Positions 8,514 to 52,639 of a stretch of DNA of 64,000 bases are shown here, one piece after another (position 1 is the first letter of the stretch; every line of letters starts with the position of its first letter). The notes beneath the pieces are model-generated. The model had not been told where the DNA came from, did no database searches, and worked only from the letters and a program-made list of their open reading frames with translations. The position numbers and the translations under genes are program-made. The DNA comes from Prevotella sp. (lineage in GTDB: Bacteria; Bacteroidota; Bacteroidia; Bacteroidales; Bacteroidaceae), in NCBI GenBank assembly GCA_017554385.1, contig JAFZIL010000030.1, positions 1-64,000 on the forward strand, written 5' to 3'.

Positions 8514-10169
8514 ATGATCAGCGAATATCAAGTAAGAGTGTTGCCCGAAGTGGCTGCACAGCAGGAGTGTCTCGTGGCCTTTCTGGCCGACGAATACGGA
8601 CTAAATAAGAAAGATGTGACGGGCGTGCGGATATTGAAACGCTCCATCGATGCCCGACAGCGTACCATCTATGTCAACCTTCGCGTACGCGTGTATATAA
8701 ATGAGGTGGCAGCTGACGATGTGTTTGAGCCTGTCAGCTATCAGGACGTATCAGATAAGCCGCAGGTCATTGTCGTCGGTGCGGGTCCTGGTGGTCTGTT
8801 TGCCGCCCTTCGGTTGATAGAGCTGGGCTTGCGCCCCGTGGTGATAGAGCGTGGTAAGGACGTACATGAACGGAAGAAGGACCTTGCTCAGATTGCCCGC
8901 ACGCAGCAGGTCGATGAGGAGAGTAACTATTGTTTCGGTGAGGGCGGTGCCGGTGCCTACAGCGACGGCAAGCTCTATACCCGTTCGAAGAAGCGCGGAC
9001 CAATAGAAAAGATACTCCGTGTGTTTTGTCAGCATGGTGCATCGACGGCTATTCTGGCTGATGCCCATCCCCATATCGGCACCGACCGACTTCCACAGGT
9101 CATTGAGGCTATGCGCAATACCATTATCCGTTGCGGTGGTGAGGTGCATTTCCAGACGAAGATGACGCGGCTCTTGATTGGTGGAAGGTTGAAGGTGGAG
9201 GGTGGAAGGAGGATAGACTCTGGTGAGACTTATAAGGTGATGGGTGTGGAAGCATTGTATTCTCCCTCCTCTCTCCACCTTCCACCCTCCACCAAAGAAT
9301 TTCTTGGTCCCGTCATTCTGGCTACAGGCCACAGCGCCCGCGATGTCTACCGATATCTGGCAGATGCGAAGATAGAGATTGAGCCCAAAGGTATTGCCGT
9401 GGGTGTCAGATTGGAACATCCTGCACAGCTAATAGACCAGATACAATACCATCGGCGCGAGGGTAGGGGACGCTGGCTCCCTGCAGCCGAATATTCTTTT
9501 GTGACGCAGGTCGACGGTCGTGGTGTCTACTCGTTCTGTATGTGTCCTGGCGGCTTTGTCATCCCCGCAGCCACAGGGCCGGAGCAGATAGTGGTCAACG
9601 GCATGAGCCCTGCCAGTCGCGGTACGAAATGGAGCAATAGCGGTATGGTGGTAGAGGTTCGTCCTGAAGATCTTCAGGACAAAAAAATGAGAAATGAGAA
9701 AGGAGAAATGGGAAATGACCCGTTGGCCATGATGCGCTATCAGGAAGAGCTCGAGCGTATGTGCTGGCAGCAGGGCAACAGGAAGCAGACGGCACCTGCA
9801 CAGCGTATGGCTGACTTTGTGAACAGTCGGTTGAGCGCTGACCTTCCTCAAAGCAGCTATGCACCTGGCCTCTTGGCATCGCCGCTCCATTTCTGGATGC
9901 CGAAGCCAATTGTCAGCCGATTGCAGCAGGGCTTCCGAACCTTTGGCCGACAGGCTCATGGATTCCTGACCAACGAGGCAGTGATGATTGCCGTTGAGAC
10001 CCGCACGTCGAGTCCCGTACGTATCACCCGCGATGCTATGACCTTACAGCATGTACAGTTGCAAGGACTATTCCCCTGTGGCGAGGGTGCCGGCTATGCC
10101 GGAGGCATTGTCTCAGCAGGTGTCGATGGTGAGCGTTGCGCGGAAATGTGCGCTGCGTGGATGTCTTGA
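8514..10169 (+). CDS. FAD-dependent oxidoreductase (COG2509-like, NAD(P)/FAD fold)
   Basis: A cytoplasmic flavoprotein with an N-terminal region of about 80 residues, the Rossmann motif VIVVGAGPGGLFAALRLIELG at about residues 83-103, a glycine-rich FGEGGAGAYSDGKLYTRSKKRG, LGPVILATGHSARDVYRYL, and the C-terminal FAD-binding FPCGEGAGYAGGIVSAGVDG. The substrate is unknown; the family is common in Bacteroidetes. Two stretches look like insertions compared with the expected fold: about residues 223-260, bounded by a 16-bp inverted repeat, and about 383-402, made of a perfect 20-bp palindrome plus heptamer repeats. Both keep the frame. The stop is one base away from the tamB stop (convergent), and no terminator is visible between them. 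Confidence 0.9.
   Translation: MISEYQVRVLPEVAAQQECLVAFLADEYGLNKKDVTGVRILKRSIDARQRTIYVNLRVRVYINEVAADDVFEPVSYQDVSDKPQVIVVGAGPGGLFAALRLIELGLRPVVIERGKDVHERKKDLAQIARTQQVDEESNYCFGEGGAGAYSDGKLYTRSKKRGPIEKILRVFCQHGASTAILADAHPHIGTDRLPQVIEAMRNTIIRCGGEVHFQTKMTRLLIGGRLKVEGGRRIDSGETYKVMGVEALYSPSSLHLPPSTKEFLGPVILATGHSARDVYRYLADAKIEIEPKGIAVGVRLEHPAQLIDQIQYHRREGRGRWLPAAEYSFVTQVDGRGVYSFCMCPGGFVIPAATGPEQIVVNGMSPASRGTKWSNSGMVVEVRPEDLQDKKMRNEKGEMGNDPLAMMRYQEELERMCWQQGNRKQTAPAQRMADFVNSRLSADLPQSSYAPGLLASPLHFWMPKPIVSRLQQGFRTFGRQAHGFLTNEAVMIAVETRTSSPVRITRDAMTLQHVQLQGLFPCGEGAGYAGGIVSAGVDGERCAEMCAAWMS
9180..9293 (+). repeat. In-frame palindromic insertion in the FAD oxidoreductase gene
   Basis: A stretch of about 114 bp bounded by inverted arms rich in GGTGGA. 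The core arms GGTGGAGGGTGGAAGG (9194-9209) and CCTTCCACCCTCCACC (9278-9293) are perfect complements over 16 bp, and the similarity extends beyond with mismatches. It is translated as about 38 residues (GGRLKVEGG ... SLHLPPSTKE) in a loop before LGPVILATGH. Confidence 0.85.
9661..9680 (+). repeat. Perfect 20-bp palindrome in coding sequence
   Basis: GTCCTGAAGATCTTCAGGAC is fully self-complementary, with no loop. It is followed directly by AAAAAA and the heptamer array at 9687. It is translated within VRPEDLQDKK. Confidence 0.95.
9687..9717 (+). repeat. Heptamer repeat (ATGAGAA-type) in the FAD oxidoreductase gene
   Basis: Units ATGAGAA, ATGAGAA, AGGAGAA, ATGGGAA and ATGA in a row. A perfect array would bring TGA into frame; the third unit carries AGG where that stop would fall, so the frame stays open (MRNEKGEMGND). 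Similar words occur at 48095-48110. Confidence 0.9.
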
Positions 10170-14943: not shown

Positions 14944-16305
14944 ATGTCATTCAATCAAGTGTTTCAATTAAAGAAAGGCTTGGACATCCGCTTGAAAGGG
15001 CGTGCTGAGGAGACGAAAATCCAGTTGAAGTCGAACGGGAAGTTTGCTTTGGTTCCCGACGATTTCGAGGGTGTGACTCCGAAGGTTGTCGTAAAAGAGG
15101 GTGACCAGGTCAAGGCGGGCGACATCTTGTTCGTGAACAAGCAGTTCCCGCAGGTAGGCTTTGCTTCTCCAGTGAGCGGTAAGGTCACGGCCATTGAGCG
15201 AGGGGAACGCCGCAAGGTGCTTGCTGTGAAGATTGATGCCGACGCCCAGCAGAGCTATCGCGAGTTGGGTAAGAAGGACGTGGCGCAGATGGACGGCAAG
15301 GCCGTCGTCGACGCACTCCTCGAGGCTGGCATCTTTGGGTACATCAATCAGTTGCCTTATGCTGTGTCTACCAACCCGGAGACCATGCCTAAGGCGATTT
15401 TTGTTTCCGCCCTGCGCGACAAGCCGCTGGCCTGCGATTTCGAGTACGAAGTCAAGGGACAGGAACAGGACTTCGTGACTGGTTTGCAGGCGTTGTCGAA
15501 GATTGCCAAAACCTATGTAGGCGTAGGCGAAACCTCAAACCTCAAATCTCAAATCTCAGACCTAAAGGATGTTGAGGTGAACGCATTCGCCGGACCTTGC
15601 CCTGCAGGTAATGTTGGTGTGCAGGTGAACCACATCGACCCCGTAAACAAGGGTGAGGTGGTGTGGACCATTGGTGACCCGACGGTGGTGCTCTTCATCG
15701 GTCGTCTCTTCAATACGGGCCGAGTGAACCTGACCCGCACGGTGGCTCTTTGCGGCAGCGAGATTCAGAAGCCCGTCCATGTAGACATGCTCGTAGGCGA
15801 GGAACTCTCCACATTGCTGTCGAACAGCTATGATGCCTCGCACCACGTGCGCATCATCAACGGCAATGTGCTCACAGGCCGCCAGACCTCGAAAGAGGGC
15901 TACTTAGGCGCACACAGTTCTGAGATTACCGTCATTCCCGAAGGCGACGATGCCGACGAGATGCTGGGTTGGATTATGCCGCGATTGAAGCAGTTCTCCG
16001 TCAACCGTAGTTACTTCTCTTGGCTTTTGGGTAAGAAGGAGTATGAGGCCGATGCCCGCATCAAGGGCGGTGAGCGTCACATCATCATGAGTGGGGAATA
16101 CGACCGCGTGCTGCCGATGGACATCTATGGTGAATACCTCATCAAGGCCATTATCACTGGCGACATCGACCGCCAGGAACAGCTTGGCATCTATGAGGTT
16201 AGTCCCGAGGACTTCGCCCTTGCCGAGTTCGTCGACAGCTCGAAGTTGGAGTTGCAGCGCATTGTGCGTGAAGGACTGAATATTTTACGTAAAGAAAACG
16301 CATAA
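14944..16305 (+). CDS. nqrA: Na+-translocating NADH:quinone reductase subunit A
   Basis: Cytoplasmic-side subunit of the Na+-pumping NADH:quinone oxidoreductase. The 453-residue product starts with a lipoyl-like domain (KGLDIRLKGRAEETK, GDILFVNKQFPQVGFASPVSGKV), then FAGPCPAGNVGVQVNHIDPVNKGE, and ends with a helical tail (LELQRIVREGLNILRKE). Residues about 196-207 (ETSNLKSQISDLK) come from a heptamer repeat inserted in frame just before the conserved FAGPCPAGN stretch. First gene of nqrABCDEF; nqrB begins 2 bases after the stop. Confidence 0.97.
   Translation: MSFNQVFQLKKGLDIRLKGRAEETKIQLKSNGKFALVPDDFEGVTPKVVVKEGDQVKAGDILFVNKQFPQVGFASPVSGKVTAIERGERRKVLAVKIDADAQQSYRELGKKDVAQMDGKAVVDALLEAGIFGYINQLPYAVSTNPETMPKAIFVSALRDKPLACDFEYEVKGQEQDFVTGLQALSKIAKTYVGVGETSNLKSQISDLKDVEVNAFAGPCPAGNVGVQVNHIDPVNKGEVVWTIGDPTVVLFIGRLFNTGRVNLTRTVALCGSEIQKPVHVDMLVGEELSTLLSNSYDASHHVRIINGNVLTGRQTSKEGYLGAHSSEITVIPEGDDADEMLGWIMPRLKQFSVNRSYFSWLLGKKEYEADARIKGGERHIIMSGEYDRVLPMDIYGEYLIKAIITGDIDRQEQLGIYEVSPEDFALAEFVDSSKLELQRIVREGLNILRKENA
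15529..15561 (+). repeat. Heptamer tandem repeat inside nqrA
   Basis: Partial GAAAC, then CTCAAAC, CTCAAAT, CTCAAAT and CTCAGAC on the coding strand. This is the same unit, and the same orientation relative to coding, as in thrC at 2439 and 2790, giving similar peptides (TSNLK). It is more degenerate than the thrC copy. Confidence 0.92.
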
Positions 16306-33795: not shown

Positions 33796-33812
33796 AATCT
33801 AAAGTTATAGGT

Positions 33813-33890
33813 AAAAGTGAAAAGTGAAAAATTTCCTTCCGGAACAGCTTGGCGGCAGCAATTATTCACTTTTCACTATTCACTTTTCCC
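33813..33890. repeat. Inverted heptamer repeats between the NfnAB-like and DUF486 genes
   Basis: The left arm 33813-33834 has AAAAGTGA AAAGTGA AAAATTT; the right arm 33861-33890 reads TTCACTTTTCACTATTCACT and on, its complement. The unit AAAGTGA carries TGA in its reading cycle, and this supplies the stop codon of the NfnAB-like gene at 33880. Confidence 0.88.
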
Positions 33891-36237
33891 TTAAATACTC
33901 GTCCATGTTCTGAGCAGCACGGCGGCCGTCGCCCATAGCGAGGATGACGGTGGCACCTCCGCGCACGATGTCGCCTCCAGCGAATATCTCCTTGCGCGAC
34001 GACTGCATCTCCTCGCTCACTGCGATGGTGTTCTTGCGACCCAGCTCCAGGCCCTCAATGCTCTTTGGTACGAGTGGGTTGGGGCTAACGCCTACGGCCA
34101 CGATGACCTGGTCGACGTCGAGTGTCACCGTCTTGCCCTCCACAGGCACCGGTGAACGGCGTCCGCTGGCATCGGGCTCACCCAGCTCCATCACCTGGAG
34201 CACGGCCTGCTTCACGGCTCCCTGCTCGTCGGCAATGTACTTGATGGGGTTGTGCAGCGTGAGGAATGTGATGCCCTCTTCCTTGGCGTGCTTCACCTCT
34301 TCGAGACGGGCAGGCATCTCGACTTCCGAGCGACGATATACCAGCGTGACGTTGGCACCGAGACGCTTGGCCGTACGACAAGAGTCCATAGCTGTATTGC
34401 CACCGCCCACGACGAGCACGTTGGTGGCGGGATTCAGCGGGGTGTCGGTGGTCGGGTTGGCGGCATCCATCAGGTTTACGCGCGTCAGGTATTCGTTGCT
34501 CGACATGATGTTGATGCTATTCTCACCAGGAATGTTCATGAAGTTGGGAAGACCTGCGCCCGAGCCTACGAAGATGCCCTTGAAGCCTTGCTTCTCTAAC
34601 TGTTCCACGCTGATGGTCTTGCCCACGATGACGTCGGTCTGGAAGTGCACGCCCATCTTAGCGAGGTTCTCAATCTCCACGTCGACGATGCGGTTGGGCA
34701 GACGGAACTCGGGGATGCCGTACTTCAGCACACCGCCAATTTCGTGCAGGGCCTCGAACACGTAGACGTCGTACCCCTTCTTCACCATATCGCCAGCGAA
34801 GGACAAGCCGGCAGGGCCAGAGCCTACGACGGCAATCTTGATGCCGTTGGCAGGTGCTATCTCGGGCAGGGAGATGTTGCCGCTCTCGCGTTCGTAGTCG
34901 GCAGCGAAACGCTCCAAGTAGCCGATGGCCACAGCGGGCTTGCCCATCTTCAGGTGTATGCACTTACTCTCGCACTGCTTCTCCTGCGGACATACGCGAC
35001 CGCATACGGCAGGCAGGGAAGAGGTGTTCTTCAGCACTTTTGCGGCAGCGAGGAACTGGCCGCGCTCAATGTTCTTGATGAACGACGGGATGTCGATGTT
35101 CACCGGACATCCCTCTATACATGAAGGCTTGGCGCAGTCGAGACAACGCTTGGCCTCCTTCATGGCCATCTCTTTCGTCAGACCGATGTTCACCTCCTCA
35201 GTACGGGTGGTGGCACGGTAGACGGGGTCGAGCTCGGGCATCACCACACGCTCTATCTGTGTGCGCTCTTTCGGCTTCATCGTAGCTCGGAGCTCCTTGC
35301 GCCACTCGGCCTCGTGGTCGGTGAGCACATCAATAGTATCGTTTGTCGGGTCGTCATCCATTACGATGTCAGTGTTTTTCTCGGCGGCAGAACCGTCGGA
35401 CACACTTACATTTGCTAAGTGCTCCTCAAAGTGAGCCAACTCCTCCTGCTCCTCGCGCTTGAAGGTACCCATGCGCTTGAACATCTCGTCCCAGTCGACG
35501 AGAGCACCGTCGAACTCAGGGCCATCGATGCAGACGAACTTCGTCTTGCCGCCAATGGTCAGTCTGCAGGCACCACACATGCCCGTGCCGTCGACCATGA
35601 TGGTGTTCAGGCTCACTTCGCAGGGTATGTTGTGCTTCTGGGCGGTGAGGTTCGAGAACTTCATCATGATGGGAGGGCCAATGGCAAACACCTTGTCCAC
35701 ATGCTCCTGCTCGATAAACTTCTCAATGCCCACGGTCACCACGCCCTTTTCACCGTAGCTGCCGTCGTCGGTCATGATGATGACCTTGTCCGAGCTCTCA
35801 CGTACCTTGTCTTCTAATATGATAAGATCCTTCGAGCGTCCGGCCATCACCGAGAGCACACGGTTGCCTGCTGCCTTCAGTGCTTGGATGATGGGCAGCA
35901 TCGGGGCCACGCCCAGTCCGCCACCGGCACACACCACGGTGCCGAAGTTCTCGATGTGGGTAGGATTGCCCAACGGGCCCACCACGTCGGCCACATATTC
36001 GCCCTCGTTGAGCATGCACAGCTTCTTGCTGGAGAGTCCAACCTGTTGTACCACGAGAGTGATGGTGCCGCGTTCCTTATCGGCACCGGCGATGGTGAGG
36101 GGCATGCGCTCGCCTTTCTTGTCGACACGCACGATGACGAAGTTACCCGCTTTGCGGCTCTGCGCAATCAGCGGAGCCTCGATTTCAAAGAGAAAGACCT
36201 TCTCAGAGAATTGTTCTTTTCTGACAATTTTATTCAT
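33880..36237 (-). CDS. Fused flavoprotein: NfnA/PyrK-like + NfnB/GltD-like
   Basis: A 785-residue fusion. Residues 1 to about 250 resemble the NAD/FAD electron-transfer unit of dihydroorotate dehydrogenase B or NfnA (GGGLGVAPMLPIIQAL; 2Fe-2S cysteines around VDGTGMCGACRLTIGG). From about 330 it is a GltD/NfnB-like part with two 4Fe-4S cysteine groups (CLDCAKPSCIEGCPVNI and CGRVCPQEKQCESKC), the FAD motif VGSGPAGLSFAGDM, and the NADPH site VVGGGNTAMDSCRTAKRLG. It may act as an NADH-dependent ferredoxin:NADP oxidoreductase (electron bifurcation) or as a glutamate synthase small chain; no large GltB is adjacent. The start at 36237 (MNKIVRKEQ) follows a promoter. The last codons lie in a heptamer repeat. 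Confidence 0.87.
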   Translation of the reverse strand: MNKIVRKEQFSEKVFLFEIEAPLIAQSRKAGNFVIVRVDKKGERMPLTIAGADKERGTITLVVQQVGLSSKKLCMLNEGEYVADVVGPLGNPTHIENFGTVVCAGGGLGVAPMLPIIQALKAAGNRVLSVMAGRSKDLIILEDKVRESSDKVIIMTDDGSYGEKGVVTVGIEKFIEQEHVDKVFAIGPPIMMKFSNLTAQKHNIPCEVSLNTIMVDGTGMCGACRLTIGGKTKFVCIDGPEFDGALVDWDEMFKRMGTFKREEQEELAHFEEHLANVSVSDGSAAEKNTDIVMDDDPTNDTIDVLTDHEAEWRKELRATMKPKERTQIERVVMPELDPVYRATTRTEEVNIGLTKEMAMKEAKRCLDCAKPSCIEGCPVNIDIPSFIKNIERGQFLAAAKVLKNTSSLPAVCGRVCPQEKQCESKCIHLKMGKPAVAIGYLERFAADYERESGNISLPEIAPANGIKIAVVGSGPAGLSFAGDMVKKGYDVYVFEALHEIGGVLKYGIPEFRLPNRIVDVEIENLAKMGVHFQTDVIVGKTISVEQLEKQGFKGIFVGSGAGLPNFMNIPGENSINIMSSNEYLTRVNLMDAANPTTDTPLNPATNVLVVGGGNTAMDSCRTAKRLGANVTLVYRRSEVEMPARLEEVKHAKEEGITFLTLHNPIKYIADEQGAVKQAVLQVMELGEPDASGRRSPVPVEGKTVTLDVDQVIVAVGVSPNPLVPKSIEGLELGRKNTIAVSEEMQSSRKEIFAGGDIVRGGATVILAMGDGRRAAQNMDEYLREK

Positions 36238-46154: not shown

Positions 46155-46164
46155 GCTTCTTTTT

Positions 46165-46214
46165 TTATTGGGCTTATTGGGCTAATGGGGCCAATGGGTC
46201 TTGGGGCTAATGGG
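46165..46214 (-). repeat. Repeat-filled gap after the aminotransferase gene
   Basis: On the plus strand TTATTGGGC, TTATTGGGC, TAATGGGGC, CAATGGGTC, TTGGGGC and TAATGGG follow each other. On the minus strand CCCATTAGCCCAATAA is shared with the gap at 4532-4560. Confidence 0.8.
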
Positions 46215-52455: not shown

Positions 52456-52605
52456 GTGGCCGACCCCGACGAGTGGTCTGTGCTCAAGAACATCAAGAGC
52501 GCCCACGTGATCTTCCAGCCTGAGTTCGAGACCGAGATCGTCGGTGGACAGCACCGTCGCGTCTACGCGAAACCCCTTTATCTGTGCGTAAAGCGCGAAA
52601 ATAAC
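52456..52605 (+). pseudogene. Orphan coding-like fragment
   Basis: About 45 codons in one frame, starting from GTG at 52456 (VADPDEWSVLKNIKSAHVIF, then QPEFETEIVGGQHRRVYAKP), with the strong C/G preference at third positions seen in real genes here. I do not recognise the family. The frame has no natural end: beyond about 52595 it runs into the octamer repeat and the antisense of menF. It is best explained as the remnant of a gene broken by rearrangement; a tiny real gene is less likely. Confidence 0.45.
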
Positions 52606-52639
52606 GTTTTACCGCTTTACCGCTTTACCGCTTTTTATG
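52606..52639 (-). repeat. Octamer repeat at the 3' end of menF
   Basis: On the minus strand AAAGCGGT units follow the codons for LLD. One pass through the unit in frame gives S-G-K-A-V-K-R-stop, so the repeat provides the last residues and the TAA of menF. Inverted partner at 52034-52058. Confidence 0.9.

Follow-up and report, generated by a model that had tools for sequence, protein, structure and literature searches.

Tandem arrays of TAACTGA-type heptamers have been described in Beggiatoaceae, Cyanobacteria and some Bacteroidetes, and in the passages cited from that work heptamers are stated to be the most abundant repeat class in most genomes, with polymerase slippage as their proposed origin (PMC4679880, citing Mrazek 2007). 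Heptamer arrays are also mentioned for Xanthomonas and Nostoc in an excerpt of PMC4692102, and for Porphyromonas a part of PMC4596501 speaks of a 23-bp minisatellite miniature inverted-repeat transposable element. The present text deals with a locus at which such arrays are found in inverted orientation within a protein-coding gene. It lies in 64,000 nucleotides of Prevotella sp. DNA (assembly GCA_017554385.1, contig JAFZIL010000030.1, positions 1-64,000 of the forward strand; this whole 64-kb stretch is called the window), taken from a metagenome-assembled genome of 98 contigs and 81% completeness. The gene encodes a VP0956-like flavin adenine dinucleotide (FAD)-dependent protein, in which two heptamer arrays of the same family, inverted with respect to each other, are translated and fill two successive loops around a native segment.

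Several described systems share part of these features. The Nostoc trnL group I intron has a P6b stem with degenerate heptamers (Class I TDNGATT, Class II NNTGAGT) on both sides, as at the FAD locus, and according to the passages cited their complementarity is kept while the heptamer class has been replaced repeatedly and independently between lineages (PMC4476775). In contrast to this non-coding intron stem with its folding role, both sides of the FAD repeat are translated, as two protein loops flanking conserved codons, and no RNA role is indicated: the arms stand in a protein-coding open reading frame (ORF), not in a group I intron stem, and neither the window nor 14 loci with related repeats gave an Rfam match at gathering score, on which ground a known RNA family was rejected. 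Rickettsia palindromic elements (RPE) are palindromic DNA translated in frame within unrelated genes (PMC10969869) and in the passages cited they are units of about 150 bp inserted whole, whereas the FAD locus has a native centre and arms built of heptamer arrays. The coding palindromes of nematomorph mitochondria have translated arms too, with template switching named as one possible origin; those arms, however, are perfect, reach 284 bp and encode conserved residues (excerpts of PMC6649704), while the FAD arms are low-complexity heptamers in variable loops and it is the spacer that is conserved. The genome shares with heptanucleotide long simple sequence repeats (SSR), or short tandemly repeated repetitive sequences, the many dispersed tandem 7-nt units and the rarity of other unit lengths, but known heptamer SSR are mainly direct and intergenic, with one inverted case among 170 sets in the passages of PMC4679880, whereas the own genome has an excess of inverted neighbours, one half of its sampled arrays being inside ORFs. 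Finally, template switching is a known source of inverted arms and of their homogenisation (excerpts of PMC8794818 and PMC8604942), and switching at quasipalindromes predicts reverse-complement copies near their source and homogenised arms (passages of PMC8794818 and PMC7202029). The FAD arms do stand in a reverse-complement relation, but the relatives compared do not show the donor state of such a switch, and the passages on this mutation do not tie it to heptamer arrays in two neighbouring protein loops. Judged by their titles and opening abstract lines, the open-licence PMC papers listed on the subject describe neither heptamers nor translated palindromes nor palindromic repeats for Prevotella or other Bacteroidales. 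Heptamer repeats and template-switch palindromes are known kinds; the unusual consequence here is that two protein loops co-vary as DNA mirror images.

Two inverted arrays around a native centre

The features of the host gene on which the description rests are as follows.

8514..10169, plus strand: ORF of the VP0956-like FAD-dependent protein, 551 amino acids (aa) (PF21688, E 9.9e-70; 3nlc_A, VP0956, E 2.3e-90)
9174..9311, plus strand: span between conserved anchors, 46 aa (homologue alignment)
9178..9215, plus strand: left arm, purine-strand array of GGTGGAR/GGTTGAR heptamers, read as GGRLKVEGGRR in the first loop
9194..9209, plus strand: 16-bp perfect core of the left arm, GGTGGAGGGTGGAAGG (word search)
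9234..9254, plus strand: native conserved segment KVMGVEA between the arms, outside any insertion (homologue alignments)
9258..9295, plus strand: right arm, array of YTCCACC heptamers and reverse complement of the left arm, translated as SPSSLHLPPST in the following loop
9278..9293, minus strand: 16-bp perfect core of the right arm, GGTGGAGGGTGGAAGG on this strand (word search)

The best ungapped arms (9178-9215 and 9258-9295) are 38 nt long, 84% complementary and 42 nt apart. Folded as RNA the repeat reaches -63 kcal/mol, compared with -42.3 (standard deviation 3.6) for dinucleotide shuffles, of which 0 of 200 was as good (z -5.77), and folded as single-stranded DNA it gives z -4.21. Both arms are in frame and the ORF is open throughout with no stops. 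The inverted repeat noticed in the first-pass annotation therefore exists, and its low-complexity arms are, as had been supposed there, of the same repeat type as the other heptamers of the window; both arms consist of degenerate GGTGGAR units. That annotation had also described one in-frame insert of about 114 bp (9180-9293), bounded by a 16-bp perfect inverted repeat and adding about 38 residues. The perfect core is real, but it does not bound this interval, as the left core begins at 9194, and the single insert is contradicted by the KVMGVEA centre, which aligns with a segment that the homologues keep and in which Gly244 is invariant in 35 aligned rows. Instead of one insertion with clean edges, the alignment gave two arms in two loops with conserved host sequence between them.

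Homologues were collected in 110 rows, 108 of them different (the own row, L021, and 109 others); the first alignment comprised the own protein and 29 relatives, and VP0956 (3nlc), to which the protein is homologous, is of solved structure. The anchor-to-anchor span could be measured in 109 rows including the own one (L090, which has no anchor, was left out), and with a median of 26 aa against 46 aa here the net gain is about 20 aa. Judging from their variable length in the alignments, the array sites would be surface loops. Inserts of another repeat-like kind (CCGCTCGGC...GACGCTT type) are found in the same two loops of L128, L141 and L081, and these loops therefore look insertion-tolerant.

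The nearest relative fetched (L022, genome G034, 85% identity) has the middle segment, lacks the left array and carries in its right loop an array of a different heptamer. A search of the own genome for GGTGGAGGGTGGAAGG with up to two mismatches, as had been proposed in the first-pass annotation, returned 74 matches compared with 18 for the reversed pattern, overlapping matches within arrays being counted. The GGTGGA family of the L021 arms is abundant in this genome and for the most part peculiar to it, no more than 12 matches having been found in any of 53 others searched and 3 in G034. Because G034 is without the GGTGGA family and without the left array, the two arms as they now stand probably arose after the split from it.

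Co-variation of the loops and heptamer arrays in the genome

The left and right loops could be split around KVMGVEA in 106 of the 110 rows; the permutation test left out L090 and also L046, L097 and L101, whose segment can be seen but was missed by the middle pattern. Both loops are long, with no fewer than 8 aa on the left and 12 aa on the right, in 18 rows; there the mean inverted score between left and right loop is 10.5, whereas permuted partners give 5.7 (standard deviation 0.67), and the observed value was reached in 0 of 20,000 permutations. Direct similarity of left and right carries no signal in the same rows, as 6,276 of 20,000 permutations reach what was observed. The pairing is strong in L148, L133, L021, L074, L023 and L025 and weaker in L084 and L149. 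For L148, L133 and L021 the self scores are 26.5, 24.0 and 23.0, and in all three the best match of a loop is its own partner. The paired heptamers are thus complementary within a genome though their sequence differs between genomes, which is evident from the permutation test and from the clade mates L148 and L133, which score only 4 and 5 with each other despite a shared, starred three-row clade. On the gene tree, made by a quick method with branch support from the approximate likelihood ratio test SH-aLRT only, the paired state, assigned to 8 rows of which two are weak, requires 5 changes, and the starred branches force 5. Homologues carrying other nucleotides at this place had been named beforehand as the finding that should speak against the element. 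Such homologues do occur (L023, L025, L074, L133 and L148), but their heptamers are again complementary from loop to loop, which argues for a recurrent process and not against the feature. Taken together, the earlier observation is partly confirmed and its interpretation partly supported.

The arrays of the FAD gene are of one period. Among the 110 rows 29 arrays of period 7 were counted and none at periods 5, 6 or 8-12; at a looser threshold the number rises to 35, of which 7 belong to the left loop, 8 to the right and 15 to a third one near residue 395, while the remaining 5 stand upstream of the start codon. In the own gene the third loop holds the following array.

9681..9718, plus strand: AAATGAG heptamer array, KKMRNEKGEMGN, in the third loop of the FAD protein, with no inverted partner

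The third loop, taken via alignment columns with L106 dropped for N, has arrays in 13 of the 110 rows. Inverted pairs are present in five of its 58 loops of at least 14 aa, each pair beyond 200 of 200 shuffles. Three of them belong to named strains, Bacteroides finegoldii DSM 17565, B. rodentium JCM 16496 and Mediterranea massiliensis, and the feature is therefore not confined to assembled metagenomes. A search of plasmid records for the FAD gene gave four records, all with less than 80% coverage of the query, and contributed nothing further.

Outside this gene the same period prevails. In two contigs of the own genome (391,642 bases) 46 period-7 arrays were found, compared with none in a Markov null and with 0-9 arrays for each other period between 5 and 13, while 200 kb each of G024 and G016, neither of which has arrays in the FAD gene, contain 0 and 1. 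In the contigs and the window together, which hold 52 arrays, 12 have an inverted partner within 300 bp against 2.1 expected, and 6 a direct partner against 3.5; expectations come from swapped flanks and both members of a pair are counted. Half of the arrays (26 of 52) lie inside ORFs at a depth of more than 60 bp, the ORFs having been taken simply as the longest ones. The window itself contains a second pair of inverted heptamer arrays.

33809..33891, minus strand: inverted pair of AGTGAAN-family heptamers at a gene end (arms 33809-33830 and 33870-33891)

Origin of the paired arms

The reading favoured here, with a probability of a little under 60%, is that slippage and short-range inverted template switching produced the paired arrays and that these were tolerated in loops. 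In heptamer-rich Bacteroidales genomes 7-nt units would multiply through replication slippage, and during copying the polymerase would sometimes jump to a nearby complementary or nascent strand; such a switch would write the reverse complement of an array some tens of bases off, and later switches would homogenise both arms, so that they change together. The copies would last only at sites where the protein can accommodate them and where they have no stops or were cleared of these, namely in loops, in signal peptides and between genes. No sign was found of the arrays serving the enzyme, and we infer slippage, template switching and neutrality for the enzyme alike. The matched pairs of differing repeats suggest that the two loops were shaped jointly by the copying of DNA and not by the function of the protein.

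The imperfections of the arms point in the same direction as regards the level at which they arose. In ten rows of the FAD gene the mismatches between arms comprise 7 G-U, 11 A-C and 24 transversions, and in 26 pairs, which are not independent (24 come from the own genome), 27 G-U, 65 A-C and 90 transversions, with coding constraint contributing to these counts. There is no excess of G-U, which fits poorly with a selected mRNA stem and speaks for the DNA rather than the RNA level. When one arm was replaced in silico by the exact complement of the other, in-frame stops appeared in 5 of 7 rows, and coding therefore explains part of the imperfection.

A number of findings weigh against template switching as the source of the pairs. 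Most of the 106 parsed rows have no pair, and 40 of the 52 arrays are without an inverted partner at the 300-bp cut, so inversion is not obligatory. The loops of L023, L025, L074 and L084 match those of one or two other genomes equally well or better, because these heptamers are common to the genomes. The left arrays of L084 and L148, an ATTGACC array with its flanking peptide, are nearly identical though the two rows lie far apart on the gene tree, and the left loop of L084 scores 25.5 with the right loop of L148; this likeness may come from transfer or recombination and not from local copying. The donor state was not found in the relatives compared: the left loop of L021 scores 6.0 with the right loop of L022 (rank 26 of 106), which leaves the right loop of L022 unsupported as a template for the left arm of L021, and the left loops of L023 and L074 score 6.0 and 6.5 with the right loop of L049, showing no special complementarity. 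As to the statistics, because the genome is the unit of permutation and some of the rows, L023 and L074, are closely related, the p-value overstates independence, and the co-variation had been noticed before it was tested.

It can also be supposed that each loop acquired independently a heptamer abundant in its genome and that coding constraint, i.e. a stop-free frame and the chemistry of the loop, set the orientation. The frequency of single arrays and the abundance of GGTGGA in the own genome, both given above, agree with this, as do rows with an array on the right only (L022, L027, L049) or on the left only (L073, L084, L148, the right loop of L148 being nevertheless complementary); moreover, of 26 ORF-internal arrays 18 are read in the orientation with the smaller number of stop-bearing frames and 5 in the other, the two being equal for 3. 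Such a course is nonetheless unlikely, for among the six strongest pairs there are five whose left loop bears the strand with stops when the units are pure (GGTGAGA, GGTTAGG, ATTGACC, ATAGTTC; units by inspection), and these left loops use altered, stop-avoiding units even though the other strand is stop-free for GGTGAGA and ATTGACC. The genome-wide excess, too, is among inverted neighbours and not among direct ones. The arrival of a whole palindromic mobile element in frame, as in Rickettsia, is improbable at the FAD locus. True in-frame palindromes do exist in the same genome (described below for XseA and PcnB), and to that extent the comparison with RPE made in the first-pass annotation holds for the genome; for this locus it does not, since the conserved host sequence in the middle contradicts a single insertion, L022 has the middle without the left arm, and the span contains no TTTGCTNCCGC cap.

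Preservation of the stem for the sake of the transcript, for instance in translation pausing, stability or regulation, might be expected from the very stable predicted fold and from the co-variation of its two sides among genomes. It is nevertheless given a slim chance and was rejected on the absent G-U excess (A-C mismatches outnumber G-U, 65 to 27, in the 26 non-independent pairs), to which may be added that most homologues have no stem and that Rfam, as stated, gave no family. An artefact of assembly comes to mind with a fragmented and incomplete metagenome-assembled genome, yet it is very improbable in view of the preserved reading frame, the analogous pairs in several other genomes and the third-loop inverted pairs of named strains. 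The locus links widespread and little-explained heptamer repeats with the formation of inverted repeats and with the evolution of protein loops, and the related genomes form a natural series in which the two arms differ in step. Whether template switching or RNA selection matches the arms is directly testable in culturable Bacteroidales. For annotators and protein modellers there is a caution as well, as some indel-rich loops in such proteins are repeat DNA.

Capped palindromes and other repeats

A second kind of translated palindrome in the own genome is marked by a cap. The cap motif AATTTGCTNCCGC (up to one mismatch) has 103 copies there compared with 3 for the reversed control, and in the copies read it usually adjoins AGTGAAN or GAGTGTA arrays. 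Among the 100 matches listed, 17 neighbouring cap pairs stand within 120 bp: 14 point inward, 3 are in direct orientation and none points outward. The capped palindrome has the form heptamers-TTTGCTNCCGC-spacer-GCGGNAGCAAA-heptamers, with these examples.

G000:C70:8345-8398: capped palindrome, locus L261
G000:C79:39405-39452: capped palindrome, locus L262
G000:C39:4736-4786: capped palindrome, locus L259
G000:C14:33669-33707: capped palindrome, locus L256
G000:C32:25256-25303: capped palindrome, locus L220

Eight capped palindromes that were read are in open frames. Their host proteins match the large subunit of exonuclease VII (XseA), RNB (RNase R-like), DEAD helicase (by our own reading PriA-like), poly(A) polymerase head (PcnB-like) and MatE, and three have no Pfam match. 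The 35-aa insert of XseA is absent from all 23 other rows aligned (23 of the 29 other loci fetched). At the corresponding site of PcnB most of the 22 other rows (again from 29 loci fetched) have few residues, while L277, L278, L281 and L289 carry other, longer inserts. In both proteins the capped palindrome is thus an in-frame insertion of one contiguous segment that is missing from the aligned orthologues. A profile of the translated element (consensus ..EFATA-x(n)-AVANSTLYTLHSxL) matched in 14 of 60 genomes, all 14 belonging to the 36 same-genus genomes, with no match in the 24 others; many of these matches are partial or represent the second strand of one palindrome, and among the rows listed 9 of the 14 genomes have a match over 29 or more of the 32 positions. 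In the own genome 12 places reach this level within an open frame of no less than 430 aa.

In its description this element may be likened to RPE, and with it a seemingly undescribed family of capped translated palindromes comes into view in Prevotella. The two phenomena meet in L049, whose inverted pair in the third loop of the FAD protein (one of the five mentioned) is the capped element itself. The FAD locus of the own genome, however, is treated as a sister phenomenon of the capped family and not as its member, because it has no cap and its centre is native. In a wider formulation, to which an even chance is given, protein loops in heptamer-rich Prevotella and other Bacteroidales could be written by a DNA process, inverted copying over tens of bases, with two loops evolving in concert as mirror images; the same process joined with the TTTGCTNCCGC cap could yield dispersed in-frame translated palindromes, a Bacteroidota counterpart of RPE of different origin.

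Other repeats were encountered in the same genome. The REP-like word (repetitive extragenic palindrome) GCAAGCGACCNNNGGTCGAGCGGA has 26 copies (up to three mismatches) compared with none in the control and adjoins GGTTTGA and GGTGGA arrays in the loci read, for example at G000:C57:25622-25696, C25:2039 and C77:15216 (L068, L057 and L063). As a mover, the REP-associated tyrosine transposase (RAYT) was considered and rejected, for the only Y1_Tnp match carries its own, different GTAG palindrome. This gene, the sole PF01797 match in the genome, encodes a Y1-type (RAYT-like) transposase (L255, G000:C75, ORF 1408-1953 on the minus strand), stands between genes reading like hisC and hisD and is flanked by the GTAGGGGCAGGCCC palindrome; neither the cap nor the REP-like word searched occurs at the locus, and no GGTGGA array was seen in the 1,001 bases read.

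In the window, GGTTTGA-family heptamer arrays at 2433-2476 and 15527-15565 are translated in two other ORFs as SNLKPQT-type repeats, and short tandem arrays of 8-bp (TTTACCGC) and 9-bp units are located at 52599-52637 and 46164-46201 respectively. At G000:C62:62760-62980, 132800-133010 and 136850-137060 pyrimidine-strand heptamer arrays supply the codons for the hydrophobic stretch of what look like lipoprotein signal peptides, and in these genes, whose type is judged from sequence, a purine-strand array stands just upstream of the putative start codon.

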